From Amphirosellinia nigrospora (Eukaryota > Ascomycota > Sordariomycetes > Xylariales > Xylariaceae): a stretch of DNA of 64,000 nucleotides. A program made the position numbers and the translations under genes. The stretch is taken from contig SCHM01000002.1 of assembly GCA_004123355.1 (NCBI GenBank), forward strand, positions 11,071,569 to 11,135,568, written 5' to 3'. The stretch's first letter is position 1. Each line of letters begins with the position of its first letter. The notes under the pieces are model-generated. The model saw only the letters and a program-made list of their open reading frames with translations. It was not told where the DNA came from and did not search any database. This document shows, one piece after another, positions 434-59,468 of this stretch.

Positions 434-3400
434 TTAAGTCACCGGAGCCGACATTGCTCGATACTTCTCGGATGGATTGTAGGTTATACCCCGACTCTGT
501 CGGAGTATCTGTCGTGCGCGGTCGAGATCCTGTTCGTAACCCTCCACTACCGTATTACGCCGCGATCTTCGACTACCGCCCCTCCGGAGAGTATACGCAT
601 CCCGCGTGTTTTTACTTATTTCGACTGGTGCCATCGTCGTTTCATTCTGTGCTTCATCATCTTTCTCACTGCGGGCATCAAGTCTCCTGCTTTCCTCGTA
701 GCTATACTCGCTCTCCCGGTTCGAGCTTGGACTAGTACTTCCCAGTGAAAAATAGTTCTTCGCAGCGCCAACGGTTCCCTTCTTGCCCGGGCTACATCCT
801 CCACCTCGAAGTTCGGGGAGAGTGGGACTTGTGATGTTCGTTGTGGCCGTGCTATACGAACTGACGCAGCTCACCTGGCTGTTCATGCGGCGGAGTTCTA
901 CCACGGTGTTCATGACCCGACTCGTGTGCTTGCCTGGCGCCGCCGTCGTATTAGAATAAATAGGCATGAGCGGCGCCAACCTATCTCCGCCTTCATCTTG
1001 CGAATATGTCGATTCGCTGACGGTGCTGCAGGTGATGTCACGATGTGGCTGGGACCGGGGGAGCGCGTCTTCCACGGTATAGACCATCCCCACGGCGCCA
1101 TTCTCCATTGTGGAGAGCTCCAATGGGTTGGCGAAATGCGTGTATGTCCCAGTCCCTGATAGGGCGTTATTTAACCGTACGTGTGTGGAGCGCATCTCGC
1201 GGTCATCTGTATGGTGCTCAGTCGCTATGATGGAGAGGGGTCTGGTTCCATGTACTTTTTGTGGGCGATCCCTCAGCAGGCGGCACTGTGAGCATCGTAG
1301 TGGCGCTCAGCCGCGCCAACGCCTGTGACCCCTCAACACTGTCACTGTATCGACGACTGTATCGATAGCTGTCGTACACGGACGACAGCCCGCCCTCTGA
1401 TTCCACCGGGCTTCCCTGTCGGCTCGGGGCTTGGATCTGGAACTGCGCGTCATGGTAGTGGCCCAGCGTCGGCGAATTTGCCCCAGGTCGTAGGCGGTGT
1501 GGAGGAGGGACCACGCGTCGTGATGGCGAGGGCGTCGGGGTCCCGGAATACGGCTCAGCCGTGTCTTCGGCAGAGTTCGTGGTGTCACCCTGTAGCTTGG
1601 TTGGCAGCGGAGAGAAGAGCTTGGAAAGACGCTGTGGCGTGAGCTGTTTCGGCGTTGTAGATGTGGTGAAAGGATCTTCTGTTTCGGTCTGAAGGTTTTG
1701 AATTATCGACATCCCCTGGGGCGAGAATCTAGCTGTCGGCTGCTTTATGCCACCTGAGGGGAAGAGGCGGCGGTTTGAGTGCCATTCGGATATATACGTT
1801 CCAGGGTCCTGTGCCGTTTATGGAAGGATCGAGGGCCGGAACTGGGTTGAACATTTTCATATAATTCCCGTCTTCCCTCAACGGCTTCAGCGTCATCATT
1901 TCCCTGTACTTGCCTACTGTAGAAGGCATCACTTGTCTGCAAAGCTTGAGCCATAACTCTTCCCGAAATCTCGCTCGCTCCCCCGGGACGCTTTCGAGTT
2001 GCGGAACGCTGGTTGGAAGACCATCTTCCTCCTCGCTATACACGGTCGAAAGTGCCGAGGACTGTTCGCTCGCTGGTGAATATGATCGAGGAATCAAATC
2101 TTGCTGCGTGTGAGAAGGTGGTGTGTGGATCGAGCGACTCGGGCTGGGGAGCGTTACGTGTAGCATATCAACCTGGGAGCGGTGCTTAGTCGGTGTTGCC
2201 ACCAGATTGTCGGGCTCAGCGAGCATCGATACTCGTGATATTGTGGAATGTGGGATATCTCTCGTGAATGAGTCCGTCTGTGCGTTTGCCACGGCGCGCG
2301 GTTCTGTGACGGGCCCTGCTGCTGGATCCCAGGATTGCCGCCTTCGGGCTCAGAGTACAGCATGACCGCAGGAGCGCTCTTCTGGCTTTTCGCCGGACTC
2401 GTTACCGCACTCCCTGCATGCGCGTAGTCCTTGCCGGACCAATTTCCTTGATCTGGGCCCGTCTCGTCTGGTCTAGCAGTCTGGTAGACGATGACGAAGA
2501 AGCTGGCACCATCATCGTTTGCCTCCTCGCGCTCCGATTTCCGTCTTCCAACCTTTCTGCCGTGCGACGCAAGATCGCTTGCAGTTCTGCGTCTGTATTG
2601 CTCTGCTGCGAGCGCGAGTAGCTTGGTTGTTGTCCGTTGACCCCTCTGTCGAAGTTCGGCACCCGTGCTCGACTAGGTAGCTGTTGCGGAGCATCATCAC
2701 TCCTATTGTTGTGATACCGAGAACTAGGAGGGACAGCCCCTGGAACAGAAGCTCGTTGCGGCCCCGAGCCCCGATTGTGGACTCGAGGTATTGGGTTGTT
2801 CGGAGGTCCGCCTTGCTGATACGGAAACGGTTGCTCGATAGTGAAACGTGGTTCGGTCTGTGGCTCTGTCTTCATCTCGCGCGATCTGCGCGGGTTCTCC
2901 GTATAGATGGTCTTTCGACTCTCGTGTGACTTTCTAGAAGCCCCATCTGCCATATCTAGGCTGGGACCGGTTTCTATATAGGGCAACGTAGGACTACGGT
3001 CGAGCTCAGGTGCATAAAATCTGCGAATCGAAAGATGTCGGCTTAGCGTCCGCGTGAGCCCACGGCCTGGAACCCAGCTCGATTTCTTCTTCGTATCCTT
3101 CTTTGTCGAGATGCGGGGGCCATGCAGCGCGTCCTCATCAATCCATGATGTCCTCCGTCGGTTCTGGTAGATGGCGTGTCCACGGCGCTTCTCTGGGGAC
3201 CCATACGTTTGCTCTCCGTTTGCACCTGAATCTACGCCGTTATGGTTCCTTTCACCGCCCCCATTCTCAGACCCAATCCCTGAAAAAAGGTCACCGACCC
3301 CGAAACTCCCAGGACGTGAGAAGACAGGTGGGAGAATGGGCAAACTGAGATGTCTCGCTACCCTCCCACTACCACCTCTGCCTCCCCCGACAGCCTCGGC

Positions 3401-3780
3401 ATGTTTTGTCCCGAAATACATCACACCATCGCTGACCACACTCCTCTTACGCAACCTCCGAGGCCCGTTGAAATTCTCATCCTGTGCGAGCTGTCCGTGT
3501 TCTACAGAGGAGAGGCTAGTAATTGAACCTTGGCTTCGGTGGCCACGACCCCGCCGCTTCGCAAGCCTTATCAAGAGGGGCGCGATAATCAAGAAGAACA
3601 CCACGGAGCCCGCGATGGCGATGCTGGCTAACGCGCCGCTCGATAGCTTAGTTGTCGGGATTCTGAGCGGTTTACCAGCCGGTAGATGGACAGGCCCATT
3701 TGTCGAGCTTGCCTCAATATGGGTTTCGTCATTGTCCCCCCCCCAGCGGTCCTCTTCAGCAAAGGCGGCGAAAATGTATT
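434..3780 (-). CDS. Single-pass membrane protein with long Ser/Arg-rich cytoplasmic tail (hypothetical, fungal)
   Basis: Four long minus-strand reading stretches follow one another (about 3780-2402, 2292-1729, 1712-1218 and 1195-434). Near 3690-3560 a short Thr/Pro/Gly-rich ectodomain leads into one hydrophobic helix (ALASIAIAGSVVFFLIIAPL) followed by a basic stop-transfer stretch (RLAKRRGRGHR). The rest is a long, low-complexity, Ser/Pro/Arg-rich tail containing RRTSWIDEDALHGP, which resembles conserved fungal plasma-membrane proteins of unknown function. Frame changes near 2300-2400 and 1712-1730 could be introns. The one near 1218 looks more like a one-base break, because the downstream frame stays open upstream of the stop. 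A signal-peptide exon should lie upstream; frame is lost at a TAA near 3779-3781, just above a run of nine C (3736-3744). No function is assigned. Confidence 0.6.
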
Positions 3781-5178
3781 ATTCGCTTTCCATATGCTCA
3801 ATCCGCGAGCTTGTGAGACTCCTTTCGGGCGGGAACTGTCAACGTTGTCCCAGGTCGTTGTCTACCAGAGGTTCCGCTTGCCCTTCGACTTGCCGATAAT
3901 ACATTTGGCGTCGACCCTCACAAAGATCCCTCGCAGCCGTGAATACGTCAGATCGTTGCGATTGTTAGCCTCGCCTCTGAATAGACCGACGATAGCTTCT
4001 AGCAAGGAAAGACAAATGGGGGGAAGAAGTCCAAGGTAGACAGACGACCATGACTGACACGACGGAAGGAGAATGGAGAAGATTACCTAGATTCCAGAAT
4101 TCATAGCGTCCGCAGTCCAAAAAAACAAAAACAAACCCTTTACCCACCATTGCATGGAGAGACAAAGTGAGTGCATGATAGGCAGGTGGGCAAATTGGCC
4201 CCCGTGTTAGGTCTAGATGTAAACCTCCAACGAGAGCACATATAAGATTACGACATAAACAGACCTAAGACTCGCCCTTCTTCAATCACTTCCTTCTACT
4301 CGCCGAACAAAGATCCACATACCTTCAAGATCGTCATCGCTGTTACGGCAACGAGACACTAAGAATGTGTTGTCACGGTGTGACCGGGCAGGCGAGACAA
4401 CAGCATTCCGGCACTTACGCGCTTCGGATCTGCGCCAACAGGCCAAGAGATGAGAGATGAGCTCTTGAGACATAAAGTAGTTACCTCTAGAGTCCAGTTG
4501 TCCATTCTCGGTGTTAACACAAACAAATGAAGGTTGGTGGTGTCTAGATTACAATAACACATCCAGCATTTCTGCAGTCGAAATTTCGCTTGGACGTCGT
4601 CGGCATGCATACTGTGCACAAACCATGTTACTAAAAATATCAAGTCACATGGTAAACTCATAAGGTGTTGTTATTAACAACGGATTAGCGACACGCAAAA
4701 TAGTTATTGGCAACAATGTCTCTTGGTGTCTTCAGATTATCTTCATTGTAGTGCAATACAATACGAAGCCTCGAGAGGTAGCGTAGAAAGAAGCATTTAC
4801 GTGAAGACAAGACCACTCATCACTTCCCTGACAACTTTGGCTCCAAAAATCAGACGGCCTTGGGAATACGAGAGCCTGAGCCACCATCATATGCAATACC
4901 TCTCATCCCTACATTTCAGACTGCACTGCCATAATCACAACTCAGTTGTTTAAGGTGTGCAATAGGAAAGCAAGCATCTCGTACGTAAAGCTCGCCCAAT
5001 TCGGTTCATATGCTTGTGCTCTTCCCAAGAGTCTAGAATCAATCAACATGTACCGAAGAAAATCCCCAGGCAGAATCTAGCCGCTCATGGGAGATAGTAG
5101 GTGCAATATCCTCTTCCTCCCTTATCGCCCAAAATATCTTCACAGAAACAAATAGTAGTGTGTGGTCTCGGTTCGAAT
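3781..5178. other. Intergenic between two minus-strand genes
   Basis: May contain the first exon or promoter of the upstream membrane-protein gene (about 3781-4100), which I could not fix. An A-rich patch with repeated aaaac units lies near 4118-4137. The remainder shows only short unsupported reading frames and no RNA gene I can defend. Confidence 0.4.
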
Positions 5179-7028
5179 CTAGTATCCACGACGACCATGG
5201 TTGTGACGATGTTGCACAACGTGGTCTCGAGCTTTCTTGACCTTCTGCGGCGCCGGGCCGGGGATTGTCACAGTTGTGACAGAGTCTTCCGTCACATACA
5301 CAACTGGCTGCATCCAAACAATTTCTGACACCACATCGGCACCAGTGATTGTCTGCGTGCTAACTACTTCATAAGACACACCCGGCTCTGATGTGGGCTG
5401 AGGTGCAGAAGTGGTTGTGGGCAGAATGGAAGTCGAGGTTGAGGTGAAAGAGGTTGTGGTCGATGAAACGGCAGCCGCGCCGAAATCCGGTGCTGAAGGC
5501 GTGGCTGAAGACGTGGCTGAAGTTGGACTTTCAATAAAAGCACCACCTGACTGGACGTCTGATGAAGTGGCAACAGGTGTAGAGGTGGAGAATGTGGAGG
5601 TTGAAATACTGGATGATGTGGTAGTGGCAGGCGTGTCGCCGCCAACAATTCCACCGATCAAGCTGGTGAGCTGGCCAAGAGGGCCACCAGAGGGGTAGCC
5701 GACTGAGGGCCGTCTTGAATCTGAACACCACCTGGAAGCTCATTCATGGTCTGCGCATCAGCGTTTTCTGCAGCCAGTACCAATGGCATCTTAAACTTGC
5801 ATTCTCCTTGCTCGGCCTGTGAAAGTAGTGGTCCGTTGCTGGTGAAAAGCCCACAGTCCGAAATCTCTCCGGAGTCATTGGTGCAAGTCTCAATAGCCTC
5901 TTGCAAGAACGACGGATCCCAACCAGTCATGAAATCGCCATGGTAACCAAAGCCTGAAATTAACCTTATTAAAACAGAACATACAACATCTATGTTTTGA
6001 AATGGAGAACTTACCGGTTCTGTCGCCGTTAGACATGACAAACGAGCCACTCTTGCCTTGAAACTGAGCAGCATTTGTGTCCCAGATAGTTTCGAAAAAG
6101 AGGGTAACAAGACGCTGCGTATGAGTATCTGGGCAATTGCCATTTCCAACAAGGTCAGGATAGGCAACGTGACTCTTATGGTCATCACTGTCCGTCTCGC
6201 CATTCCAGCACGATGGGAACATGAGTTCAAGTCGAAGGCCATCAGGACAGTTAGCGTCGGTAAAGGTCTTGTTCGGCATATAATGACGGAATAGTGAGGC
6301 CTCGGCATCTTGCTTATAGTTCAAGCAGTTAAAGCCAATGGCCCGTTGTTCTAGGTCAGACTGGCCGGTTTGCTTGAGCGCAGCCCAGTTAGACTGGGGA
6401 GGATCAGGGGAATAAGGGTCTCCGACCGTGTATTCACGGCGATAGTTGCTTCCAGCAACCATTTGGAAACCAGGTGGGTAAGCAGTCACGTTGTCGCCAC
6501 GCAGGAGGTAGTACCTATGCACAAGTCAGCATGTGCACGTGAATATGTGCGTATGTTATATAAAGGGTAAATAAACAAGGTTAAATATGCACCCAGGCAT
6601 ATTGAAAGACGTTTTCAACGTAGTTGATAAGGAAATTTCAACTTACGCAAGCATTCCGCCAACCTGAGGAACAGGTGAGTACTCGTTAGTTGCAGAGTCA
6701 AGGAAGTACATTGCTGGGGTCCAGTAGGCGGATTTGTCCTGCTTGACAGCACATGATGTGCAGTCACCACTCATAAGATCGTCATACTTGGCACTTAGAC
6801 CAAAACCTAGTGATAAACATGTAAGAAAATATTCCTCTTGTAACTCAACTCAAGGAAACTCACCTGAAGATCCGTGGACAGTGTGGGCATGACCCGAGAT
6901 CTTGCCGAAGTCAATAATGGGATCGATACGAGCTAGTCCAGTGCTGCCACGGCACTCCATGCGCCAGAAGGCCTGGGTCACAGTTGACATGCAAGAATGG
7001 CCAAAGTACCAAGCGTTTTGGAATACAT
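5179..7028 (-). CDS. Secreted DUF1996 family protein with Ser/Thr-rich C-terminal tail
   Basis: The N-terminus from 7028 reads as a signal peptide (MYSKTLGTLAILA) followed by the family hallmark FWRMECRGSTGLARIDPI and GHAHTVHGSSG (about 6990-6860). Introns lie near 6810-6860 and 6515-6645, with clear GT-AG ends. The DUF1996 core continues (DGLRLELMFPSCWNG near 6200-6250; SGFGYHGDFMTGWDPSFLQ near 5890-5955) to CKFKMPLVLAAEN and a conserved LPGG end. A Ser/Thr-rich tail of roughly 150 residues follows in another frame, so either an intron or a one-base break lies near 5690-5710. Another single-base discrepancy sits inside the signal peptide, about 6985-6995. DUF1996 proteins are extracellular or wall-associated and their activity is unknown. 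The Ser/Thr tail is a likely O-glycosylated linker; no GPI signal is obvious. Confidence 0.8.
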
Positions 7029-11206: not shown

Positions 11207-13988
11207 ATGGATGACCTTTCGGGACTGGACTGGTCGTCGGCCAACCCTGCGAATGGGAATGGCAACAAGCCGCCGCCGATGAATCCTATGAGTCCGCCCA
11301 CATTCTATCCAACATTACGCCCGACCCCTTCGCCGCAGCTGTCCGGCCGGTCGACGCCTTTGTCGGCACAGACTTCCGCAGGCCCGACTACGAGGCCCGC
11401 TGCTTCGAAACCCCGCCGCCGACAGCTTTAGTAACCTCGTCAACTTCGGCGCCACAAAGAGCAATGCCAACCTCAGCCTAAGGGAACGACAGGAACAACT
11501 CGCGATAGAGAAACGCCAGAAGGATGAGGAGCAGAGGCAGCGGCTTCAATCTCAGTATGGAGTGATCAGTTCTGGGACACAATCGGCCAAGGGTCAGGTC
11601 CCGCTTCACGAACTATATCGCCTGCCGTCCCGCCGCTAGGTAGCACAACAGGGACCACGAATGGGCAAAAAGAAAGACGATGATGACGACGATTTGTTTG
11701 CGGCGTTTCAACGGGATACGAAAGTTGATAACTCGAGTCACTACCCTCCACCGACGCAGCCGCTATCTGGGACGAGCACTCCTGCCAGCGCCGCCAAACT
11801 CGATCTATCGAATGCCAACGCATGGAATAAACCCCGGCAGTCAGCGGGAATGACCTCTATGATAATGATGACGATGACGACCCCTTGGCCTGAAACAGCT
11901 AAAACCCAAGGCTCAAAGCCAACCAATACCAGATGCAGCAGACGATGATGATTTCCTTGGGGACCTAGGCAAGCCTGTTGAAGAGGTCCGGTCGAAGGCG
12001 CAAGCAGCTGAGCCAAAGCGGCAGCCTGGTAAACCGATCGATGACTCCGATTCGGACTCTGAACCCGAAACATCGTCCGGGCGTCCTGGTGTGGACCCAT
12101 TTGACAAAGCCGTAGCTGAGTTGGTTGATATGGGTTTCACGGCGGAGAATGCGAGGCGCGGTCTGACAGAGAGTGGTGCTGGGTTCGACGTGCAAGCTGC
12201 AGTCAGTTGGCTGCTAGATGACGCCCATCGGCAAGCTCGGAATAAGCAAAAGGTGCAAGGTTCTACTTCTGAACGCAGGAGAGGAGATGATAGCCGTTCG
12301 ACCAATAGCCGTGGAGCTGCATGGATGGGATGACGAAACTGGGAAAACACCTTCACGCGGAGATTCGCAGTCACCGGCCCAAATCGACGATATCTCGAAG
12401 AAAGCTGCTGCTATGGGTTCGAGCTTATTTAAGACGGCGAATTCATTGTGGAAAACTGGACAAAAGCAAGTGCAAAAGGCAGTGGCCGACTTCCAGCAAG
12501 ATGGCGGTGACCCGAACCAGCCGAAATGGATGCGCAATGCGCAAGAGCAAATGCCGCCTAGGAGAGAAGCACCTCACAACACGACTGACGAGGCTTTAAT
12601 GCTTGAGTCTGGGAGACGACCTGAGAGGCAAACGTCCCAGCATGACTCAACCCGGCGCAACCCTTCCCGTGACCACTCCCCTGCTCTGCCAATAAGGCCA
12701 CCTGGTCAGTCCAGTGCACCTAGGTGGCAACAGCCTGGGCCAACAGGCTCTGTAGACCCCCGAACGAGATTAAAGAAACAAATAGTAGAGGAGAGTGTTC
12801 AAGCATATGTTAGCCCAGCAAGGAGGAAGAAAACGACGCCGCAGGCCACACCGACAGCCGAGCCTGAAGGTGATCTTCTATTTGGTTCGCCAGGCCATCT
12901 TTTCAACCAAAACCTCAGCGCTCTACGCAGCCTTCGCCGACACCCAAAGCAGCATCACAAAGTTCATCAAGAGCCATCAGTCCCAGGCCTCCTGCACCAA
13001 CGAGAAATATACCTCCACTATCTCCTTCAGTTTTACAGGCTTCTACTCGTCACCGCCTGGATGGAACGGCACATTTCAAACTTGGCGACTACGATGCTGC
13101 ACATACGGCGTATACCAATTCGCTGTCAGGCATACCACAAAACCATCCAATATGCATAATTATTCTTACCAACCGAGCGCTGACCTCATTAAAGACTGGA
13201 AGCCCTAAGCAGGCAGTCAGTGATGCCGATAGCGCAATCAGTATTATTGGCCCTTCACGTGGCGAAGGCGAGAGTGTGGCATTACCTGATGGTGACTCAC
13301 GCGATATGAAAGACCTCTACGGAAAAGCACTTAGCCGCAAAGCAGAAGCTCTTGAGCAAATGGAGAAATGGGCAGATGCTGGAAATGTATGGCAGCAATG
13401 CGTCGAATCTGGAGTAGGCGGCCCGAATGCAGTCGCGGGTCGGCAGCGATGTCAGAAAGCCCTTGCACCCAAGCCTAAAGCAGCGTCACGACCCGTCCAG
13501 GCGTCAAAACCTCGGCCACGACCCTCGGCTATGTCCGATCTTGGACCTCAAAAGAGCTCAGAAGCCGTCCAACGACTACGCGAGGCGAACAGGGCTGCCG
13601 AGGCTGCTGATGATGAGAAGTTCGCCCTTGGAGAAAAGGTTGATGCTCGAATTGCTGCTTGGCGAGATGGGAAGAGGGACAATCTGCGAGCACTACTGGG
13701 CAGCATGGACCAGGTCTTATGGGAGGATAGCGGCTGGAAGAAGGTGGGCTTGCACGAGCTGGTGATCGCCAATAAAGTGAAGATTCACTACATGAAGGCG
13801 ATCGCAAAATGCCATCCCGATAAGGTGAGAGCTAACTCTCGACCCACCGCCACGTGCTTCAGCTACGATACTAACGACGATGATCAGCTCCCCAAGACGC
13901 AAACACCGAAACACGGCTGATTGCGGCTACTGTATTTGCAACTCTCAACGAGAGTTGGGACAAATTCAAGGCTGATAACGGATTATGA
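11207..13988 (+). CDS. swa2: Auxilin-like clathrin uncoating factor (UBA + TPR + J domain)
   Basis: Swa2/auxilin recruits Hsp70 to strip clathrin from coated vesicles. Start MDDLSGLDW matches the family opening. In order: Pro-rich N-terminus; NLVNFG and LSLRERQEQLAIEKRQK motifs; acidic clathrin-binding-like stretches (DDDDDDLFAAF, 11680-11710; DDDDFLGDL, ~11945-11970); a UBA domain (DPFDKAVAELVDMGFTAENA, 12095-12165); SLFKTANSLWKTGQKQVQKA (~12420-12485); TPR helices (GTAHFKLGDYDAAHTAYTNS, ~13065-13130); and a C-terminal J domain with the HPD motif at 13813-13822. A clean intron (13825-13887, branch TACTAAC) splits the J domain; translation ends at TGA 13986-13988. The reading frame changes at several places: an extra C near 11410-11414, a break near 11655, a missing T near 11885, and breaks near 12325 and 12890. 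All are one- or two-base slips while the protein sequence on both sides stays conserved. Confidence 0.88.
13825..13887 (+). other. Intron in the J domain of the auxilin gene
   Basis: Donor GTGAGA follows the HPDK codons, branch site TACTAAC near 13868-13874, acceptor ATCAG. Removing it joins HPDK to a normal C-terminal J-domain helix (LIAATVFATLNESWDKFK). Confidence 0.85.
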
Positions 13989-41777: not shown

Positions 41778-42754
41778 CATAGCATAGAATTATAAACGCA
41801 CCTGCAAGCCAGGCAGCAACTGAGTCAATCTAGTACAAGAAGCATATATCTTCGAGCACTCGGAAATTCACTGCGTAGTCTTCTCTCCAATCTGTAATTG
41901 ACGTTGCAGCCTATTTATGCTACAGTAGTGCTTGACATAGTGATGTTGCGTTAAAGGAATATCAAAGAGAGACATCAATCTTACATTTTGACCGGTTGGG
42001 TTACAGTCTATTCTTTGGAGTCCTAGAATCATCTTACTTTTTACAAGATTTTCTAGGCAGTGTTTTAAATGGTCACATTCGAATATAACACCTTATGCAA
42101 GGGCTGATACGTATACTTGACTTGTGAATAATCCCATATAGCGTCTTGTCTCCTATTCGGTCACGGTAGGAGGTCTACACTTACAGTCTCGAAAACAAAC
42201 TACAGCGCTACACCTATGCCGCCAAAATGTTGAATATTTTACAGGCGACTAACTTCATGGCTGCAGTCATTTATATATATAATGCTAATGCTTGGATTAT
42301 AGCCACCTTGCTGACCTTGCTTTGATATAGCTGTCCCCTGAGAACATGCAACCATAGGTAAGCCGGGAGGCGAAGAGTGACATATAATCTCGCGCTCGTA
42401 TGACTACGTGCAACGCTCCTATAAAGGACACTTCCTGAATCCAGAAATTTAATCACCCCCCTTATGCACGTTGGGGCAGAATAACGTCGTCCAATTACTA
42501 CATAATGCTACCCGCCAAGTCGATCCTTTGCCGTGAAAACGCAGGGGTTTCTAACGACTGCGACCCTGGACTTCGTGCTCGGTTTCACCACGGCACATCT
42601 GCCGTCTGACCCTATTGCTGACGACGAGAGCCCCCAGCCACAGTACGCGAGTCCCCAAAAGATTATTCTCATCATGTTTATACCGTCTTGATCTGTCATC
42701 TTATATAATTATAGTTTGATGTGATGATCATCGCGAACTAGTTTTTTATCTACC
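41778..42754. other. Intergenic
   Basis: AT-rich; 3' region of the ligase and promoter of the next gene. A short gcatagcatag direct repeat (~41776-41786) is seen. No gene is supported. Confidence 0.5.
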
Positions 42755-43709
42755 ATGGCAATCCCTAGCAATGAGATGGAAGTCATGACAGCCTTTCAAG
42801 GCCTCGAGGTGGCAACGCATCAGCCACAGAACTGGCATTCCACTCCGCAATCGCCCACACAACCACCGGATGTGGCCAACGCAGAGGTTTCTTCGTACTA
42901 TGCTCCTCCCATTCTTCCCAAATATGATGAACAACAACTTCAGAATCCAAGTCCCGCTGCGGTCGACCTGCCAGTCTCCGGGGAAAAGGAGAGGGATGGT
43001 AGAACCTGGATTCCCATCGCCGCGATCGCCGCTGCGGCAGCTGCGGTTATCGTGGGGGCCGCGCTGGGAGGTGGTCTCGGGTCGGCACTATCCAGCTGCC
43101 AAAAGGATCTTCAGTCATCTCGGAACGCGTATTTTGCCAACCCCTGGTTCGTAACCTTATTTATTACGGGGGACCGTTCACAATAATTAACTAACATTGT
43201 GCGTGCGCGCGGCCAGCAGCCAATGCACAAATGGCTCGACGACGCCAACACTGACGACACAGACCCTTGCCTCTGCAACCACTTGTCTAGCCACCTTCCA
43301 GACCACCGCTGGCGGCCAGATCATCAACTACGAGCCGTGCCGAGCAAGAACGTATCCACTCTCGGCGTCGACTGCGACTCGGTGCAGAAGAGTTTGCAGG
43401 TGACGAGTCAGGGAGAAGTTCTCGGCGTACTGCAACGTGGGGTTCGAGGCGGGACCGGCCGCACCGACGGGGACGGGCACTCGTCACGTTGGCCGAGATC
43501 ACCACCTTGATTGCTTATTCGCTCTCGGATTGCCTGGAGGCGTGTTCCGGGTACACGTCCAGCTCGAGGCAGCCCGGAGGAACATTGACGAAAACTGCGG
43601 ATCTGTGGTTTTCAAGACTAACCTGGCGGAGAATTATAACGCGAACTGCGTGTTGTTGAACTCTACCATTACGCACAATCCCGGGGCGGTGCTTGTGACG
43701 AGTGTATAA
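42755..43709 (+). CDS. Single-pass membrane protein with PAN/apple-like ectodomain
   Basis: Met at 42755. A Pro/Gln-rich cytoplasmic N-terminus (PILPKYDEQQLQNPSPAAV) leads to a basic junction (EKERDGRTW) and one Ala/Val/Gly-rich helix (IPIAAIAAAAAAVIVGAALG, ~43014-43075). After an intron near 43146-43216 (CTAAC branch) the ectodomain has a Thr-rich linker, then Cys-containing segments NVSTLGVDCDSVQ, VTLAEITTLIAYSLSDCLEACSGY and ENCGSVVFKTNLAENYNANC. This spacing resembles PAN-like fungal ectodomains. Frames shift near 43420, 43480 and 43570, so the single-frame readings mix. The function may be carbohydrate or protein binding at the surface; this is inference. Confidence 0.6.
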
Positions 43710-44912: not shown

Positions 44913-47900
44913 ATGCGTCTCCTCCAGCGGCAAGAGAACGGAAGCTTTACGCTGACCGACGATCTTTTCGACAAGATCCCACCTTATGCCATTCTTTCGC
45001 ACACCTGGGGAGAAGACGGTGAAGAAGTCGTCTTTCAAGATATCAAAAGTGAGGGTCAAGGGGGAAACAACTACCGACAAAAGACCGGTTATCAAAAGAT
45101 CGATTTCTGCGCGAAGTGGGCTGCTGCCGATCGCTTGCAGTATTTTTGGATCGATACTTGCTGCATCGATAAGTCGAACAGTACCGAGCTTCACGAAGCA
45201 ATCACTTCCATGTTCCGATGGTACCAGAACGCAGCCAAATGCTACGTATACTTGTCAGACGTTATAGGCAACCAGGAACAACATCAAGACACTCTATCAC
45301 AACCAGCCTGGGAATCCGCCTTTCGCAAAAGTAGATGGTTTACTAGGGATGGACGCTGCAAGAACTTCTAGCCCCACGATGTGTAGAGTTCTTTTCGAAG
45401 GACGGCTGTAACTTGGGTAGTAGACCAGTTCTGAATCGACTTTTGCATGAGGTGACTGGGATTGCCATCGATGCTCTTCATGGGGAGACGCTGTCCCAAT
45501 TCAGCATTACCGAGCGCATGTCATGGTCGCGCGGCCGGGAAACGAAGCGTAAAGAGGACAAGGCATACGCACTCTTAGGCATCTTTGATGTTTCAATATT
45601 CATTAATTATGGCGAGGGAGAAGAGCGGGCGATGGATCGACTTCGAGCAGAGATTGAACGGCGCCGGGACTCTCAACGTAAGTATAACATATTCTAAAAT
45701 GCTATCAGCCCCTATTAACGCACCTTAGGGGCGGCATATGCGAAGGAGTTTCCCTCCGTCATACCTACGATAGCAACCGAAACAAGCTCAACTAGTATGT
45801 GTGCCCCATTATAAATGAGTTCAGGCTTTGCTTACGTACTGCCAGGGAAGCGGTACGAGAGCGCCGGCAACTTCTCATGGATTCATTATCGTTTGAGAAG
45901 ATCGACGCGCGACATTCAAATATCAAATCCGCCTATGGCAAGACATGCGCATGGCTACTGAGCCATCCCGACTATATAAAATGGCTGACTCCCGCTGAGT
46001 TTCCTCAACATCATGGTTTCTTATGGATTTATGGCAAGCCTGGCGCTGGAAAGTCAACAATAATGAAATTCATATATACGCGAGCGCTAGGGAACAGTGA
46101 CACTACTATCTCATTTTTCTTCAATGCCAGAGGGGATAATCTGGAAAAGTCAACACAAGGAATGTACCGTTCACTGTTGCTTCAGTTACTAGAGAAGCTA
46201 CCGGACCTCCAAGAAGTGCTCGATCTACCTAGCCGCTTTGGTCAAGGTCATAACGACAATAGTCTATGGGAAATCGAGGTCCTCCAGAGCCTTTTATCCG
46301 CTGCTATTGACAAACTTGGACGACGGCGAGTAACGTGCTTTGTTGACGCCCTAGATGAATGTGGCGAATCGCAAGTTCGGGACATGGTCGAATACTTTGA
46401 ACACTCGGACAATCTGCTCTGGATAACGAAGGAAAGCTTTATATCTGCTTTTCAAGCCGCCATTATCCGACGATTTGCATCCAGAATGGCCAGACATTGA
46501 CGTTAGAAGATCAACCTGGTCATAGCCAAGACCTAGAGAAGTACGTTCGAAGCAAGCTTCAAGCGGGAAAAGGCAAAGACGTCCAGCCGATCAGAACTGA
46601 GCTTCTCCAAAAGGCAGCTGGCGTTTTTATGTGGGTTGTCCTCGTCGTTAACATCCTAAACGAAGAATTTCAACGGGGCCGTATCTTTGCAGTTAGGAAA
46701 AGGCTTCAAGAGACACCTGCCGAACTAAGTGAACTCTTCAAAGATATTTTGAGACGAGACAACAAAAATATGGCCGACCTATTGCTGAGCATTCAATGGA
46801 TACTTTATGCAAGGCGCCCGATGAAACCTGAAGAATTTTACTATGCAGTAGTAGCTGGACTGGATCCGACACAGGAAAATCTAGCTCAATGGGATCCCGA
46901 ACACATTACAGAAGACGATATAAACAGATTTGTTTGTAGTTCCTCTAAGGGGCTTGCTGAGATTACTAAATCAAAAGCGCGGACGGTTCAATTCATCCAC
47001 GAATCCGTACGGGATTCTTGTTGAAAGATGGAGGTATTCATGACTTATGGCCTAACCTCGGGGTAAATTTCGAAAGCCTGAGTCATGATCAACTCAAGAG
47101 ATGTTGTTACGCATATTTTCTGACGGATATCCCAAATCGCATTACAGACAACCAAGAACTCCCAAAAGCCTCTTCTGATAGAGGAAAAGATTTACGACAA
47201 CAAGTATCAAGGAAATTCCCTTTCCTTGAATATGCGACCCAGCAAGTACTCTATCATGCTAATATGGCCGCAATCGAGTTACCCCAGCACGATTTTCTAA
47301 ACTCGTTCAATCTAAGAGTCTGGATCGATCTAGATAATCTTTTTGCAAAGTTCGGAACACGTCGGCATACATTAACTGCAAGTTTTTTGTATATTCTTGC
47401 TGATAATAACTTTGCTAGGCTTATAGATAGCATTTGTTGGGACGATACTCAAGCCTACAGTGATGAGCAATACTGGTACCCCCTCTCCGCTGCTTTGGCG
47501 AATAATCACCGAGAAGCGGTTAAAGCCCTGCTACAGTTGCAAAACGGCTCAGTAGTAGATTTTAACAGAATTATTGCAATAACGAGTTCTAGAAAAGACT
47601 TTAAGGTTTATAAAGGGCAGACACCGCTGTTGTGGGCTGCTAGAAACGGAGATCAAGAGATCGTGCAGCTACTAGTCGAAAAGGGCGCCGACGTTGACTT
47701 AGAAAGTAGTTCTGGACAAACACCACTATCGTACGCTGCCGAAACGGGCATCGAGAGACCTTGCAGCTACTGATCGAAAAGGGCGCCAATATCGATTTGA
47801 AAGATAGTTTTAGTCAAACGCCGCTATGGTACGCCGCCCGAAATAGGCATCGAGAGACCTTGCAGCTACTGATCGAAAAGGGCGCCAATATCGATTCGAA

Positions 47901-49000
47901 AGATAGTTCTAGTCAAACACCGCTATCGTACGCTGCCGAAAACGGGCATCGAGAGACCTTGCAGCTACTGATCGAAAAGGGCGCCAATATCGATTTGAAA
48001 GATAGTTTTAGTCAAACGCCGCTATGGTACGCCGCCCGAAATAGGCATCGAGAGACCTTGCAGCTACTGATCGAAAAGGGCGCCAATATCGATTCGAAAG
48101 ATCGTTCTAGTCAAACACCGCTATCGTACGCTGCCGAAAACGGGCATCGAGATATCGTACAGGTACTGATCGAAAAAGGCGCCGACGTTAACTTAAAAAT
48201 AGTTCTGGACAAACACACTATCGCACGCTGCTAAAAACGGGCATCGAGATATCGTACAAGTACTGATCGAAAAGGGCGCCAACGTTGACTCAAAAAGTAG
48301 TTCTAGTCGAACACCGCTGTCGTGGGCTGCTGAAAACGGGCATCGAGAGATTGTGCAACTACTAGCCGAAAAAGGCGCTGATATCGATTTGATAAGTAAT
48401 CATTATGGTCGGACACCGCTATCATACGCTATTAAAAAAGGGCATCGAGAGATTGTGCAGCTATTGGTTGAAAAAGGCGCTAATATCGATTTGAAAAATA
48501 ATCATTATGGTAAACACCGCTATCATACGCTGCTAACAAAGGGCATCGAGAGATTGTGCAACTACTAGTCGAAAAAGGCGCTGATATCGATTTGAAAAGT
48601 AATCATTATGGTCGGACACCGCTATCATACGCTGTTGAAAAAGGGCATCGAGAGATTGTGCAGCTATTGGTTGAAAAAGGCGCTGATATTAACTCGAAAG
48701 ATAATTATGGTCAGACACCGCTATTACGCTACTGAAAAAAAACATCGAGAGATTGTGCAACTACTAGCCGAAAAAGGCGCTGATATCGATTCGAAAAGTG
48801 GTCATTCTGGTCAGACACCGCTATCATACGCTGCTAAAAACGGGCATCAAGAGATTGTGCAGCTATTAGTTGAAAAAGGCGCTGATATTAACTCGGAAGA
48901 TGATTATTATGGTGGTCGGACACCACTGCAATGGGCTGTCGAAAACAGGCATCAAGCGATTGTGCAGCTATTAGTCGAAAAAGGCGCCAACGTTGACTAG
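44913..49000 (+). CDS. HET-NACHT-ankyrin NLR (heterokaryon-incompatibility type)
   Basis: Start MRLLQRQENGSF. HET domain: PYAILSHTWG, YFWIDTCCIDKSNSTELHEA and RSRWFTR then WTLQELLAP (44980-45380), the three HET blocks. An intron at 45678-45728 separates it from a linker (LCLRTAREAVRERRQLL). NACHT: LWIYGKPGAGKSTIMKFIY (P-loop, ~46022-46080) and TCFVDALDECGES (Walker B, ~46335-46375). A helical region leads into about 14 ankyrin units of 33 residues (47610-49000), with the pattern GQTPLSYAAENGHREIVQLL and EKGADIDLK. Known family role: innate-immunity-like sensors that trigger cell death on non-self contact; the HET domain is the death effector and the repeats sense the ligand. Frame breaks are all lost bases: 45346-45348, ~46404, 47015-47016, 47742-47744, 48195-48199, ~48217, 48512-48514, and two bases near 48724. 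Stop is TAG at 48998-49000. Confidence 0.9.
47610..49000 (+). repeat. Tandem ankyrin-repeat array, 99-base units
   Basis: About 14 direct repeats of 99 bases encoding 33-residue ankyrin units. Nucleotide identity between units is high, and 47745-47942 and 47943-48140 are two 198-base (two-unit) copies that differ at one base. The last units are more diverged (NNHYG, DDYYGG insertions). Confidence 0.92.
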
Positions 49001-49885
49001 AAAGACATTTCTACCTAGTTAGATAGCACCATTATAGGCCGCCAAAAGAGATATAAAGAGATCGTGCAGCTTTGAAACCTGGCTCGAAGTCCAGCTTTCC
49101 GACTACGTGATATTTTCCATTTAAAAGATCTAGTCTTTAACCGACCTATTGCTTGAGTTGTATGAAGGAGGTACCGGCCAGGTGAAACGATGGTTTTTGT
49201 GTCAATAAACTATCTGTAGCGATTATGTGGCCTAAATAAAGAATTCTTTTGTTTTAATCAAGAAGTTACTTCAGCTACAGTTATTGATATAAAATATATA
49301 ACTAAAAACAAATATATATATAACTTGATAGGACTGCCTTAGCCTCGCAGGGTAATATTTAGCTAACTCTGTATAGGATCCGTGTGGCACTATATCACGT
49401 AGTCAAGCTATATCTGTGTAACAGAGTCACTGTAGTTAAAGGACTGAGTATCACGATAATTAAGCCCCCCAAAAATCAAGGTTGTCGCGAGGCAGGGCAC
49501 AGAGAAGGGATAAGCAAGTAGAGTACTCATGAAACTCTAATGGAATTCATTCTAACGGACTGTAGCTAGGTATATACCTGCTAACATGTGTTCGTCCGGG
49601 TGCCCGGGTGCCATCAAGTGGGCAGAAAACGTATACACTAAACCCCCAAGCAAACTAACCAACTGTTTACAACTCCTCGTACTCCTGATGCATACCGCTT
49701 AGTGCTATCGTACCGCTTCGGACCATGGCTACAGAGTACGTGCTCTACTGAACTTCTTCATCGGTTCAAAGTCCGCAGGCGGTTGGATTGGCTGTTGTCC
49801 GGGCCCGTTGTCTCCGCTTCCACGACTGATCTGGAAGCCGAGTGCATTCGTCTCATCTCAGCACATGTCTGTGAAATGACGTCTT
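49001..49885. other. AT-rich intergenic
   Basis: 3' flank of the NLR. At least one decayed ankyrin-like unit may extend to ~49075 (gccgccaaaagagatataaagagatcgtgcagc). The remainder is AT-rich without supported genes. A CGGGTGCCCGGGTGCC motif lies near 49597-49612. Confidence 0.45.
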
Positions 49886-51602
49886 TCAGCCCCTCAAGCT
49901 TACGTTGCTGGGAATGAAGGCTCTTCGACACTGTTTCCATAGTTTCCGTAGTTGATTCGTCACTCCCACTCGCTCTCTCCTCTTCCGCGACGGGCTCGTG
50001 AGTCTCCCTGGCGCTGTCCTCCTGACCCTCTTGGCATGACTTCGAATTATGCCGGAGTCTGCTGGCGACCCTTCAGCATCGAGGCGTTCTGAGACTTTTA
50101 TGACATCCAATAAGGAAATTCGTTTTCTCAATACTCTACCTGTGGGAGAAATACGTGGATTCTTCTCCACAGGTGACTTGGAAGCTGTGGTCACTGTAGA
50201 CTCAGTATCTTCCCGAAGAGTGGTACACGACCTGAGAATATTAAGGGCCTTTTGGCGATCGGCTCTGAAAATTGGATTGAGTCGAAGACCCTTTATGAAG
50301 TTGTTTACATCACCCCAGTGCTTATTGACCCATTCGAGTTCATGGGAAGAGAAACTGCTGTTAGAGTCGTACTTCGGCATGTCATAGAGACGAGACATTG
50401 CAGCTGTCATCCTATCTTCTTCGGTCTGTTTGCCATCTTTGTCAAGTTGTGGCCCGTTCTTTTTCTGGCCGATCTCGGGATTGTAGATCGCCGACGGTGG
50501 TGGCCAGGTGAATGAGGGCGCATTCGATCTCATCTTTTTAGGCGGCGGTAGTATATAATCGGGTACCCCGGTGTCATTCGTTGGTCTCCCCCGTTTGGTA
50601 CCCTGTTGGAGGGGATCGGTACTGATCTCGTTTGGCAGTTGTGCTGGGAGTCGTGTTGGGACAGGACAATCTCGCCTTATAGCTTTCCACATCTGCCATT
50701 TTCGCCGCTCACACGTTGGCCAGGCGATTTTTGGATTGTTAGTCGAGTAGGAAGGGTGATCTGAAAGAGCAATTTTATGTCCGGCCGGAAAATAGGTTGG
50801 TTCAGGCGGGTCTAGTACAGATGCATTCCGGGGATTCCATGGTACCCCGGCGGCGCTCTTTCTGACGGGCTGGAAGGAAGCGGCAAGGTTTCCATCCTGG
50901 TCGTAAACGAGACTATGTGCCGTCGGATTGGACCATTCGTCGGTCTCGGGGCTGCCGCAATAACGTTGAAAGGGAGTTTCGGCACCCACAAGACGTCTAC
51001 GAGATGAAGAACGCTCTCTGATAATTTGGTGGAGTCGCTGGATAGGGTCTTGATGGGTAGCTCGATTGTCCCAACACCCTGCACTTGTATTTCTTCAGTC
51101 TCGTTCGTAGCAGACACGTTCAGATACTTGAAGAAGAAGGCGACGGATAGAAATTTGGTGAGTTTTTTGAATTGACGTTCATCCCTGCATGCACTTTTGC
51201 GTTGTACTATTAGTAGTTGCGTGGTGCGACGTTCCAAGCCATGAAAGACTGGGCTCACTGTGCTTCAGAATCACGAGACCAAAGCCAGAATGCGGGCTGC
51301 GGGCTGGCCTCGGAGGGCTGTCTATTGATGGATTGCAGTCTATCGCTGAGTTGCTGTCTACAGACGGATTCCTGTCTAGCGGTGGATGGTCTACTGAGAG
51401 ATTGTCGACCCATGGATCGTCCATCTATGGGTTGTCCATATATGGGATGTCCATATATGGGTTGTCCATATACGGGTTGTCCATATACGGGTTGTCCACT
51501 TGCATATACGGGTTGTCCAATTATGGGTTGTCCATATACGGGTGGTCCAAATCTGGATAGTCGATCACGATGGACGATCGGGGGAAGGATTCGTGGCATC
51601 AT
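49886..51602 (-). CDS. Retroelement-protease-like domain protein with YGQP repeats
   Basis: From about 51602 ([19 protein letters not shown]) the frame encodes five-residue repeats ([10 protein letters not shown]) over 51554-51413, then a Gln/Arg/Ser-rich stretch. In two further frames follow [13 protein letters not shown] and [15 protein letters not shown] with [19 protein letters not shown] (~51080-50960). This block resembles the copia-type pol aspartic-protease region, in a fungal family whose members continue to [15 protein letters not shown] (~50730-50680). A single open frame from 50989 to 49886 holds the C-terminal 367 residues, Pro/Lys-rich with a basic nuclear-like end. No integrase, RT or flanking terminal repeats are seen. 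It is therefore probably a domesticated single-copy relative or a solo gag-pol fragment; introns are needed near 51250 and 51130 (uncertain). Confidence 0.55.
51413..51554. repeat. 15-base minisatellite
   Basis: About nine copies of a GGGTTGTCCATATAC-like unit, with two shorter interruptions (near 51500 and 51520). Read on the minus strand it encodes YGQPV-type pentapeptides of the gene at 49886-51602; being a multiple of 3, copy-number change keeps frame. Confidence 0.9.
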
Positions 51603-56657: not shown

Positions 56658-58017
56658 AGTGAATTGAAAGCTGAAAGTGAACTGAGATAGACGAGATGGT
56701 GTGTGATGTGGTGTTGTGATGCCAAAATCCTTAAGTGAATTGGGGATTTTTTGGTTTTTATAATCAAGTTTCAAGCTACAGACAAACAATTTCATTATGC
56801 TAGAGTAAATACACAAGATGTTAAAAGAAAACAATCAAATAGTTTAGAAAGCCTAGCTCCTTTTAAAAAAAATCTTTATCTTTTAATAATTGCATTCAAA
56901 TAGTAAAAACACTAAGAAGCCGTTTTTAAGTACTAATTAACTCTTGTATTAACAATACTCCAGGTAATACTAAGTCGATCTGTTGTTTTAGTTAAAAATG
57001 TCGATTTTTGTTTAGAGGGGCGAGGATGAGCACGCTTCTCAACCCCAAAGTTTCAAAATGACAATTTAGAATACCGTCCGGCCACCAAGGATACTCTAAC
57101 AACCAACTGACGCGCGACAAGATCTGAGCCTGGTATATACTCTTAAGTTAATCGAAGACACTGTAGTTCATATTCTTTCGCTATCACCGACTACCTTAGC
57201 GTTGTGAACAAATAGTTATCATGCTTCTACCCCTATTAACCGTTACCTAAGCGAAAAGGGGCGACCCATCCGACAAGTTCTACTGATCTGCCCTAGCCGA
57301 TTAGCTAACACCCTTTTCTTGATTACTTCTATGGACTTGGGCTAGGCGGGGCGTTATTCCTCAATCTTCTACCCGATTTCTTTCAGCTTTGCGCCAATGA
57401 TAACAACTTCGGCCGTTTGGGACATCGAGGCATTCAGAAAGCGGCGAGGCTTGTTGCGATTGGAACATGTATTCTACCTCGCATTTCATGGTTGGATCCC
57501 TTCGAGTTCATAAGGCCTGGTATATGTGTAGGACCTACCTAGCCATCATCTATTGTGCCTTCCTCCTACATGCAGCCTATCTAGCCGAGGTAGTTTCGGG
57601 GCAAATGATATATGAAAGACTTTAACTGCTGACTACTCCCTTTTGCCAACCCGAATGGAGAAAGTGCTTGCGGGGTTGTATGCACCAGCTTTGGTTCAGG
57701 TAGGCAGGCAGGTAGCTGCTTATACGTTAGGTAAGGAGATGCCCGCAGAAGTTACAACTGATTGATGGTAGCACAAGGTATGGGAAGGCGCTTGCCTGCT
57801 ATAATTTCTTAGTGAAATGGAAAGTGCATGGGCGATATATTAGTACCTAATGCTAATCGCGTTGCTCTGTCGTTAGGATACATTTTCTTCCTACCTTAGG
57901 GATTTGACACCTATCAGGCTAGGTCCAACTTAAACCATCCTCGACTACTGAATCAAACATACGTAATCATTTCACTTGCTTGTTCTTGCGATTTAATGTT
58001 TTTAGCCACATAACACC
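56658..58017. other. Intergenic
   Basis: AT-rich near 56750-57000, then mixed. Short motifs such as CTACCTAGCC and CCTAGCC recur (57535, 57580). No gene is supported. Confidence 0.5.
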
Positions 58018-59468
58018 ATGGACAGCGACAACATGCGAAACACTAGTGTCGGTGGCGATCTTAGTGGCCATAACAAGAGTCTACTTGAACATCAGGAAGG
58101 GAGCTCCCGCTCGCTTACCGACTCACTCTATGACGGACCACTCAATCACATTATCAGAAACCACCCAAAACTATTTGTCAGGCCACGACAATGGACGAAG
58201 CAGCATGCTAGTTTTCTACATGTTATATGCAAGGAAGAAGGATCATGGTCCTCGCCTTCTACCCAACAAGCCAATCAACAAGAAGATGAAAGCTTAACCC
58301 ACCCCGTGGAAGAGCCGAATTCTCAGCCTCAAGGGCCCGAAGAAACGCAACATCATACATCTCCCGCCGAGGGTGCCGATACCTCCGAGGTGCCGCTACG
58401 CGTCCCTTCTTTCCGATTCCCCAGCCTGCCACACCCACATCTAAACTCACACATCGGGAGACTCAGGAGTGAAGACGCCTCCATTCCCTCACATCGGGCT
58501 GCGATGGATAGCCTGCTGGTATGGAAAAGGCGCAGACCAAGTAGAATCTGGAAGGCCCTATTGAACCCCGACGGTGTTGCCCCCGAGCCTGTCGAGACCC
58601 GCAGCTTCAAGAGCGAGGATAGCGTCAGAGAGGTGCGCCACAGGCTCAGAGTGAGATCTATCCCGCTCTACCTGAGATACGGGAAGAGGAGTATAGACAT
58701 CGGATCTATTCCTCAGATTTACACGCTTGCCGGCGACACGCCCTACACACAGATAAATTCTTGGCGCCTGATCTATCTCGATCGCTCACAGCTGGGGCCG
58801 ACTCCTTTGCCGAAACGAGAGAGACGACGCCGTAGAATGGCCGCGCGGCTCGGGATCGAGGTGGAATTCGGGCCTGAACCAAACACCGTGGTAAGCTCAG
58901 CCGACGGCAAAGACCAACAAGACGGCTGGCCGATCAACGAGGGTTACATGGCCGGTCTCTTCATCGCCACGGCACAGCAACGGCAGCGGGAGATAGAACG
59001 GAAGGAGACCTCATCTGCGATCGACACGCAGCAAGAAGCATCGCAAGTGTCTCAAAACACCCCGAGGTATACCCGCGCTACCAGATCCTGCTCACCGACA
59101 ACGGCGAGGACAGTTCCTGCATCCACCTCTACACAGCTCACGTGTCCGACTTTCTCCTCGAGCACTTCCGCCACCCCTCCCACTCCCCACAGATCTCGCC
59201 CTCTGAACACGAGCCGCACCTCATCAAGATCCACCACACAACGATTCCGTACACTCCTTACAAGTCTTTTCGACGTCGTCTTCGTATGACGATTATGGAG
59301 TTCGCCAACGGCACCGCCGGTGGTTTCTTTTCTGATCCGAACCCAGGACGTGATGAAGAGCAAGAACGGAACAGCGAGTGCGTAGCGACGACGATCGGCA
59401 CAGTTGAAACGGAGAGCCTGAACCGCCCGGAAGACGTAGTACATATGGGGGCTTGCGTGGTAGTGTGA
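58018..59468 (+). CDS. Conserved fungal-specific protein, unknown function
   Basis: Start MDSDNMRNTSVGGDL. A Pro/Gln-rich N-terminal half (to ~58500) precedes a folded region with RIWKALLNPDGVAPEPVETR, IPLYLRYGKRSIDIGSIPQI and EGYMAGLFIATAQQRQREIE. The C-terminal block YPRYQILLTDNGEDS and IHLYTAHVSDFLLEHFRHP, then HLIKIHHTTIPYTPYKSFRR (59080-59285), is typical of an uncharacterised Pezizomycotina family. A one-base loss in an A4 run (59054-59057) switches from frame 1 to frame 3; adding an A joins the two halves. The tail runs to a TGA near 59466-59468. No enzyme motif is visible. Confidence 0.7.

Follow-up and report, generated by a model that had tools for sequence, protein, structure and literature searches.

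A HET / T-NACHT / ankyrin NOD-like receptor gene of Amphirosellinia nigrospora, probably intact behind assembly frame breaks

The subject of this analysis is a single gene within 64,000 nucleotides of the xylariaceous fungus Amphirosellinia nigrospora (contig SCHM01000002.1, positions 11,071,569 to 11,135,568; the whole of this stretch is referred to as the window, and unqualified coordinates count from its first base). The genome that was searched alongside it comprises 48.1 Mb in 11 contigs, where the window corresponds to G000:C4:11071569-11135568. Between 44913 and 49000 on the forward strand the pieces of the gene succeed one another, and Pfam models recognise in them, in order, a HET domain, a nucleoside triphosphatase (NTPase) and a run of ankyrin repeats. 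An earlier, sequence-only reading of this DNA had proposed a HET-NACHT-ankyrin NOD-like receptor (NLR), with HET sequence blocks, a GKPGAGKS P-loop and a DALDEC Walker B motif; the profile matches confirm the architecture, and both NTPase motifs can be read in the sequence.

The first exon (44913-45677) contains the start codon and the HET domain, and is interrupted by one frame break near 45.34 kb. Its first piece, in 44913-45371, matches PF06985 above the cut-off (E 4e-11, 43.9 bits) across profile positions 1-106 of 146. The second piece (45347-45697) begins GWTLQELLAP and gives no Pfam match by itself at E 0.01; it matches the HET part of a HET-NACHT-WD40 gene elsewhere in the genome (L048) with 51% identity over 105 amino acids. 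A putative intron of 51 bp with the signals GTAAGT...TTAG follows (45678-45728), then a predicted short linker exon (45729-45798, ending at either 45794 or 45798) and a second putative intron (45799-45845). The phase-consistent donor of the latter is a weak GTGTGC, while a stronger GTATGT at 45795 gives another phase; depending on which donor is used, a ninth frame break is possible at this point.

The NTPase and its helical part occupy 45846-47015, with two frame breaks, one at 46.40-46.50 kb and one near 47.0 kb. The piece at 45796-46500 matches PF24883 (E 1.5e-31, 110 bits, above cut-off) and, more weakly, the NACHT model PF05729 (E 2.1e-4, 21.6 bits, below the cut-off of 26.7). Walker A lies at 46033-46056 and Walker B at 46345-46362. 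Searches of solved structures with the first HET piece and with the NTPase piece gave no match at E 0.1. At 46986-47015 there is a helical motif, VQFIHESVRD, which on inspection by eye differs from the NAIP-like FhHxxhQE motif that PMC12258605 gives for the N-NACHT class, and by this feature the NTPase fits the T-NACHT (TLP1-like) class. A linker and one diverged ankyrin unit (47016-47620; an Ank_2 match to residues 144-244 of the piece 46970-47773) lead into the repeat array.

The array itself extends from 47621 to 49022 on the forward strand. Tandem Repeats Finder (TRF) reports a period of 99 bp with 12.5 copies, 80% matches and a score of 1108 at 47621-48865; alignment in register resolves 14 units of about 99 bp, and Pfam ankyrin models match with E-values down to 1e-44. 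Frame breaks fall in units 2, 6, 7, 9 and 12. The final frame stops within unit 14, at a TAG at 48998-49000, and the register alignment picks up a decayed remnant of a further unit beyond it (49023-49071). The sequence-only reading had counted about 14 nearly identical, highly conserved units; the count stands, while near-identity does not, given that pairwise amino-acid identity over a 28-residue core averages 0.72 (range 0.57-1.00) and individual units agree with their consensus at 0.68-0.93. The usual threshold for high internal conservation is 85% identity or more over a length of 100 amino acids or more, which we have gauged here on the 28-residue core. The array is only partly of this type, because runs of at least four units, such as units 2-5 (0.94) and units 8-11 (0.90, both as identity to consensus), exceed the threshold, whereas the 14 units taken together fall below it at 0.81.

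Two aspects of the repeats bear on how they have evolved. First, units 2+3 (47720-47916) and 4+5 (47917-48114) are tandem copies of one another (47720-48114 overall), differing by two substitutions and one gap across 198 columns, as expected of a recent block duplication. Second, change among the units is predominantly synonymous (dS 0.55, dN 0.16, dN/dS 0.30, by pairwise counts over the 28-codon core), and amino-acid variability is concentrated at particular sites: core position 8 has the greatest entropy (1.78 bits), followed by 19, 4, 7, 5 and 10. Under a position scheme based on ankyrin structure, inner-helix positions are more variable than the remainder (1.17 against 0.52 bits, P 0.009; for a second set of positions, 1.12 against 0.48 bits, P 0.003), these P values being descriptive since both sets were picked once the entropies were known. 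Positions 19, 24 and 27, outside the inner-helix sets, are variable too. The pattern resembles the concave-face variability of a Podospora ankyrin NLR (PMC4986451), with the qualification that ours is a matter of descriptive entropies.

Read as it stands, the gene is broken eight times: the HET domain and the NTPase have one break each, a third lies past the helical motif near 47.0 kb, and the other five fall within the array. By frame order, seven of the eight breaks are net -1. None of the three breaks that precede the array coincides with an intron candidate, and on reading the pieces no nonsense substitution was seen ahead of the terminal TAG. A comparable case has been described in Podospora anserina, where a het-d repeat lacking one base was attributed to misassembly of a homopolymer in R9 nanopore data (PMC12222747).

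A measure of how often this assembly breaks a reading frame comes from conserved chaperone genes in the same genome. We took 45 Pfam matches for CCT and Hsp70 (25 from one search and 20 from another), which group into 20 loci with 25.1 kb of matched sequence, and classed the junctions between matches: at 14 the frame changes while the matches abut and leave no space for an intron, nine are intron-like and two are unclear. At least one frame break is present in 9 of the 20 loci. Three of the 14 breaks derive from one locus with broadly overlapping matches, and so a cautious count is 11; the corresponding rates of uncorrected indels in this sample are about 0.56 and 0.44 per kb. Three chaperone loci selected for their split matches were read (L051, L052 and L053; one CCT subunit and two Hsp70s, which we take to be of the cytosolic and mitochondrial types), and each has two frame changes within conserved sequence, five of the six being net -1. 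Since such a large share of conserved chaperone loci is unlikely to consist of pseudogenes, we conclude that the assembly carries uncorrected indels.

Genes in the window show breaks of the same kind. A gene at 11878-13920 (+), with UBA_7 (1.9e-8), auxilin J (4.8e-11; best match 4.5e-13, to 3ag7) and TPR domains, is read in two frames with two frame changes; we regard it as auxilin/Swa2-like, the likeness to Swa2 being judged by eye. Another gene, at 58006-59468 (+), has one frame change, and neither of its two frames gives a Pfam match. Of the frame-consistent GT..AG stretches at these changes, none has a consensus donor (0 of 32 and 0 of 10 at the two changes in the auxilin-like gene, 0 of 13 in the other). 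Outside the window, on contig C11, the other large ankyrin NLR array (L042:1166-3247, -; about 21 units) contains four breaks in 2.1 kb, all of them net -1.

The strongest alternative to assembly error is that the gene is genuinely broken in this strain, as a naturally inactivated allele, and several observations pull in that direction. Eight breaks are well above the 2.2 expected from the chaperone rate (P 0.002), and the excess is located in the array (five against 0.8 expected, P 0.001); adopting the baseline of 11 breaks rather than 14 makes the excess grow. Other NTPase loci of the genome hold open frames of 903-1,128 amino acids, with one of up to 1,382. The comparison of repeats reflects past selection and is compatible with a recent loss. 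The index of repeat-induced point mutation (RIP) reaches 0.01 in 48001-50000, above the rest of the gene, although RIP is not supported as a cause of decay, since the gene as a whole (-0.32) is like the window (-0.29). The decayed unit past the stop would also suit an inactivated allele, and incompatibility genes of other fungi do have null alleles, both for the hetE candidate of Aspergillus fumigatus (PMC11138114) and for het-d, of which one P. anserina strain carries an allele with read-supported stops (PMC12222747).

A uniform, genome-wide error rate can therefore be ruled out as the full explanation for the array, given its excess. However, the part of the gene outside the array is compatible with the chaperone rate (three breaks against 1.4 expected, P 0.18), and the excess is restricted to the array; repeats of this kind are expected to be the most difficult for consensus calling, and the L042 array is similarly affected. 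Inactivation would moreover have to be reconciled with the lack of any nonsense substitution seen before the last unit, and with the same kind of break in Hsp70 and CCT genes and in an auxilin-like gene. On balance we consider a truly broken gene unlikely. The frame breaks are probably assembly errors, and the gene is quite likely intact in the strain. The reading we favour overall, and hold to be likely, is of a fungal NLR of the HET / T-NACHT / ankyrin kind, whose coding sequence is probably unbroken in the fungus itself, some eight errors of assembly consensus having entered the version read here. Observed directly are domain content and order, intron signals between HET and NTPase, the block duplication, the preponderance of synonymous over nonsynonymous change and the variability of the inner helix. 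There is a practical corollary. As Hsp70 and CCT genes show the same kind of damage, accurate reads are needed before any frame break of this assembly, above all one in an NLR repeat array, is taken as the mark of a pseudogene.

Profile searches of the genome returned at least 151 HET matches (150 of 240 candidates having been scored) and 111 NPHP3_N matches, a gene content typical of a filamentous fungus; collapsing 111 and 35 matches by hand gave 94 NTPase loci. When the 150 listed HET matches are set against these loci, the HET and NTPase domains of the present gene are no more than 1 kb from each other, and a single further pair, at a distance of 3.9 kb, has a different long frame in the gap (L041:4075-4995). 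By its motif we take that frame to be SesB-like, and likewise an N-terminus in L040; the SesB-like N-termini of L040 and L041 gave no Pfam match. The possibility that this is the sole HET-NACHT gene of the genome was considered and ruled out by L048 (G000:C1:1577000-1586900), whose HET domain falls outside those 150 matches; at about 1967-5424 (-) it encodes a HET-NACHT-WD40 protein with a 126-bp repeat period and the HNWD architecture.

No close relative was found at the DNA level in the genome, where the matches beyond the gene itself are seven short ones of 66-82% identity. Protein searches with the NTPase piece returned 44 further matches of 24-54% identity, the nearest being in L039, L040, L041 and L042; no HET domain was found in the pieces of these loci that were scanned. 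The best HET match among the 12 stretches compared is instead in L048, which is 52% identical to the first HET piece over 98 amino acids. That, among the stretches compared, the best HET match and the nearest NTPases lie in different loci fits the domain shuffling described for fungal NLRs (PMC4986451). Elsewhere, L044 combines a PNP_UDP domain (9e-6) with NACHT and ankyrin repeats. As a separate observation, two loci (L054, C4:11225700-11229300; L055, C6:5799600-5803000) have a HET domain followed by diverged ankyrins, with no NTPase between them among the matches listed.

Could allorecognition be the dedicated role of this gene, making it a het locus whose repeats are polymorphic, as the sequence-only reading implied? 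Its best HET match, in L048, belongs to a gene with the architecture of het-d and het-e; the block duplication, the partly conserved repeats and the variable inner-helix residues are all of the kind that such a locus might display. However, according to reviews only a few of the HET and NLR genes act in allorecognition, in P. anserina 5 of the 125 with a HET domain (PMC10197012, PMC12881547), and the window frames that were scanned, which include 25 of the 38 others of at least 170 amino acids and some shorter, gave no SNARE, Boi1-like or glycolipid-transfer Pfam match. The comparison is also confined to a single strain. We therefore regard a dedicated het locus as improbable. A narrower proposal would have HET-mediated death gated by a fast-reshuffling ankyrin array in place of a WD40 propeller, and diversified by duplication of two-unit (198 bp) blocks. 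One such duplication is present here, though the best TRF period is 99 bp; in two other ankyrin NLR arrays the 198-bp period outscores 99 bp (L042, 2258 against 1889; L044, 736 against 567), so that two-unit block duplication may be common. Even so, we think a functional het locus of this design very doubtful. Finally, that the cell makes use of the frame changes, through programmed frameshifting or through codon-sized micro-exons such as those of Tuber NACHT-ankyrin genes (mentioned in PMC4986451), is scarcely credible when the breaks share no particular place within the conserved domains, run mostly to net -1 and recur in unrelated chaperone genes.

If the gene encodes a working HET / T-NACHT / ankyrin receptor, as we favour, its mode of action may be sketched from the family to which it belongs. 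The ankyrin face would bind a cue, either non-self or a self protein that has been modified; the NTPase would then pass from its ADP to its ATP state and oligomerise; and the HET domains, once clustered, would trigger regulated death of the hyphal compartment. HET domains have been described as remote relatives of TIR domains that retain a conserved glutamate (PMC9815663).

Two further parts of the window may be recorded here. Upstream of the gene, a neighbour at 42728-43709 (+) has, by eye, an apparent frame change and a hydrophobic stretch, and the two pieces of it that were scanned gave no Pfam match. Downstream, a weak Pol_BBD match below the cut-off (50812-51264, -; E 0.0021) is perhaps the remnant of a retroelement, and is adjoined by a 15/30-bp tandem repeat at 51402-51549.

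In the published record, the components of this gene are familiar. Among HET-like NLRs of the Sordariales, a 2025 survey found the T-NACHT type to predominate (179 genes, 92%; PMC12258605), and among the annotated repeats of fungal NLRs ankyrins are the most frequent (42%), with high internal conservation in 10% of ankyrin arrays, to which HET is preferentially joined (PMC4986451). The claim in the sequence-only reading that the ankyrin type with a HET effector is much less studied needs to be tempered accordingly. Ankyrin arrays with high internal conservation and repeat-number polymorphism, and one case of positive selection, were in print by 2014 (PMC4986451), and a NACHT-ankyrin hetE candidate and Bcvic1 have also been described (PMC11138114). 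Our search of the open-access literature, main texts only, located no study of a HET-NACHT-ankyrin gene under that name.

The nearest analogues each share part of the present structure. The HNWD family of P. anserina (het-d, het-e and het-r) has the same N-terminal HET domain, NACHT and internally conserved C-terminal repeats, but its repeats are WD40 rather than ankyrin, and conservation over the whole array is lower in the gene described here (0.81 to consensus). The hetE candidate of A. fumigatus and Bcvic1 of Botrytis, a named incompatibility gene, combine NACHT with ankyrin repeats, as here; in the parts of the source drawn on they are described without mention of a HET domain, and they lie beside, or are paired with, Boi1-like or SNARE genes (PMC11138114). 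Pa_2_8180 and Pa_3_8560 of P. anserina also possess ankyrin arrays with internal conservation, both polymorphic in repeat number and the latter under positive selection (PMC4986451); they differ from our gene in their effector, which is PNP_UDP rather than HET. The surveyed HET / T-NACHT / ankyrin NLRs (PMC4986451, Dyrka 2014; PMC12258605) agree with it in the kinds of domain, their order and the non-NAIP-like helical motif, and it is set apart from them by none of the features tested. With HET on NACHT NLRs and conserved ankyrin arrays already published, the gene is a further example of a described type of receptor; ankyrin-type HET NLRs are known but little tested, and this one offers a clear repeat array for comparison between strains.

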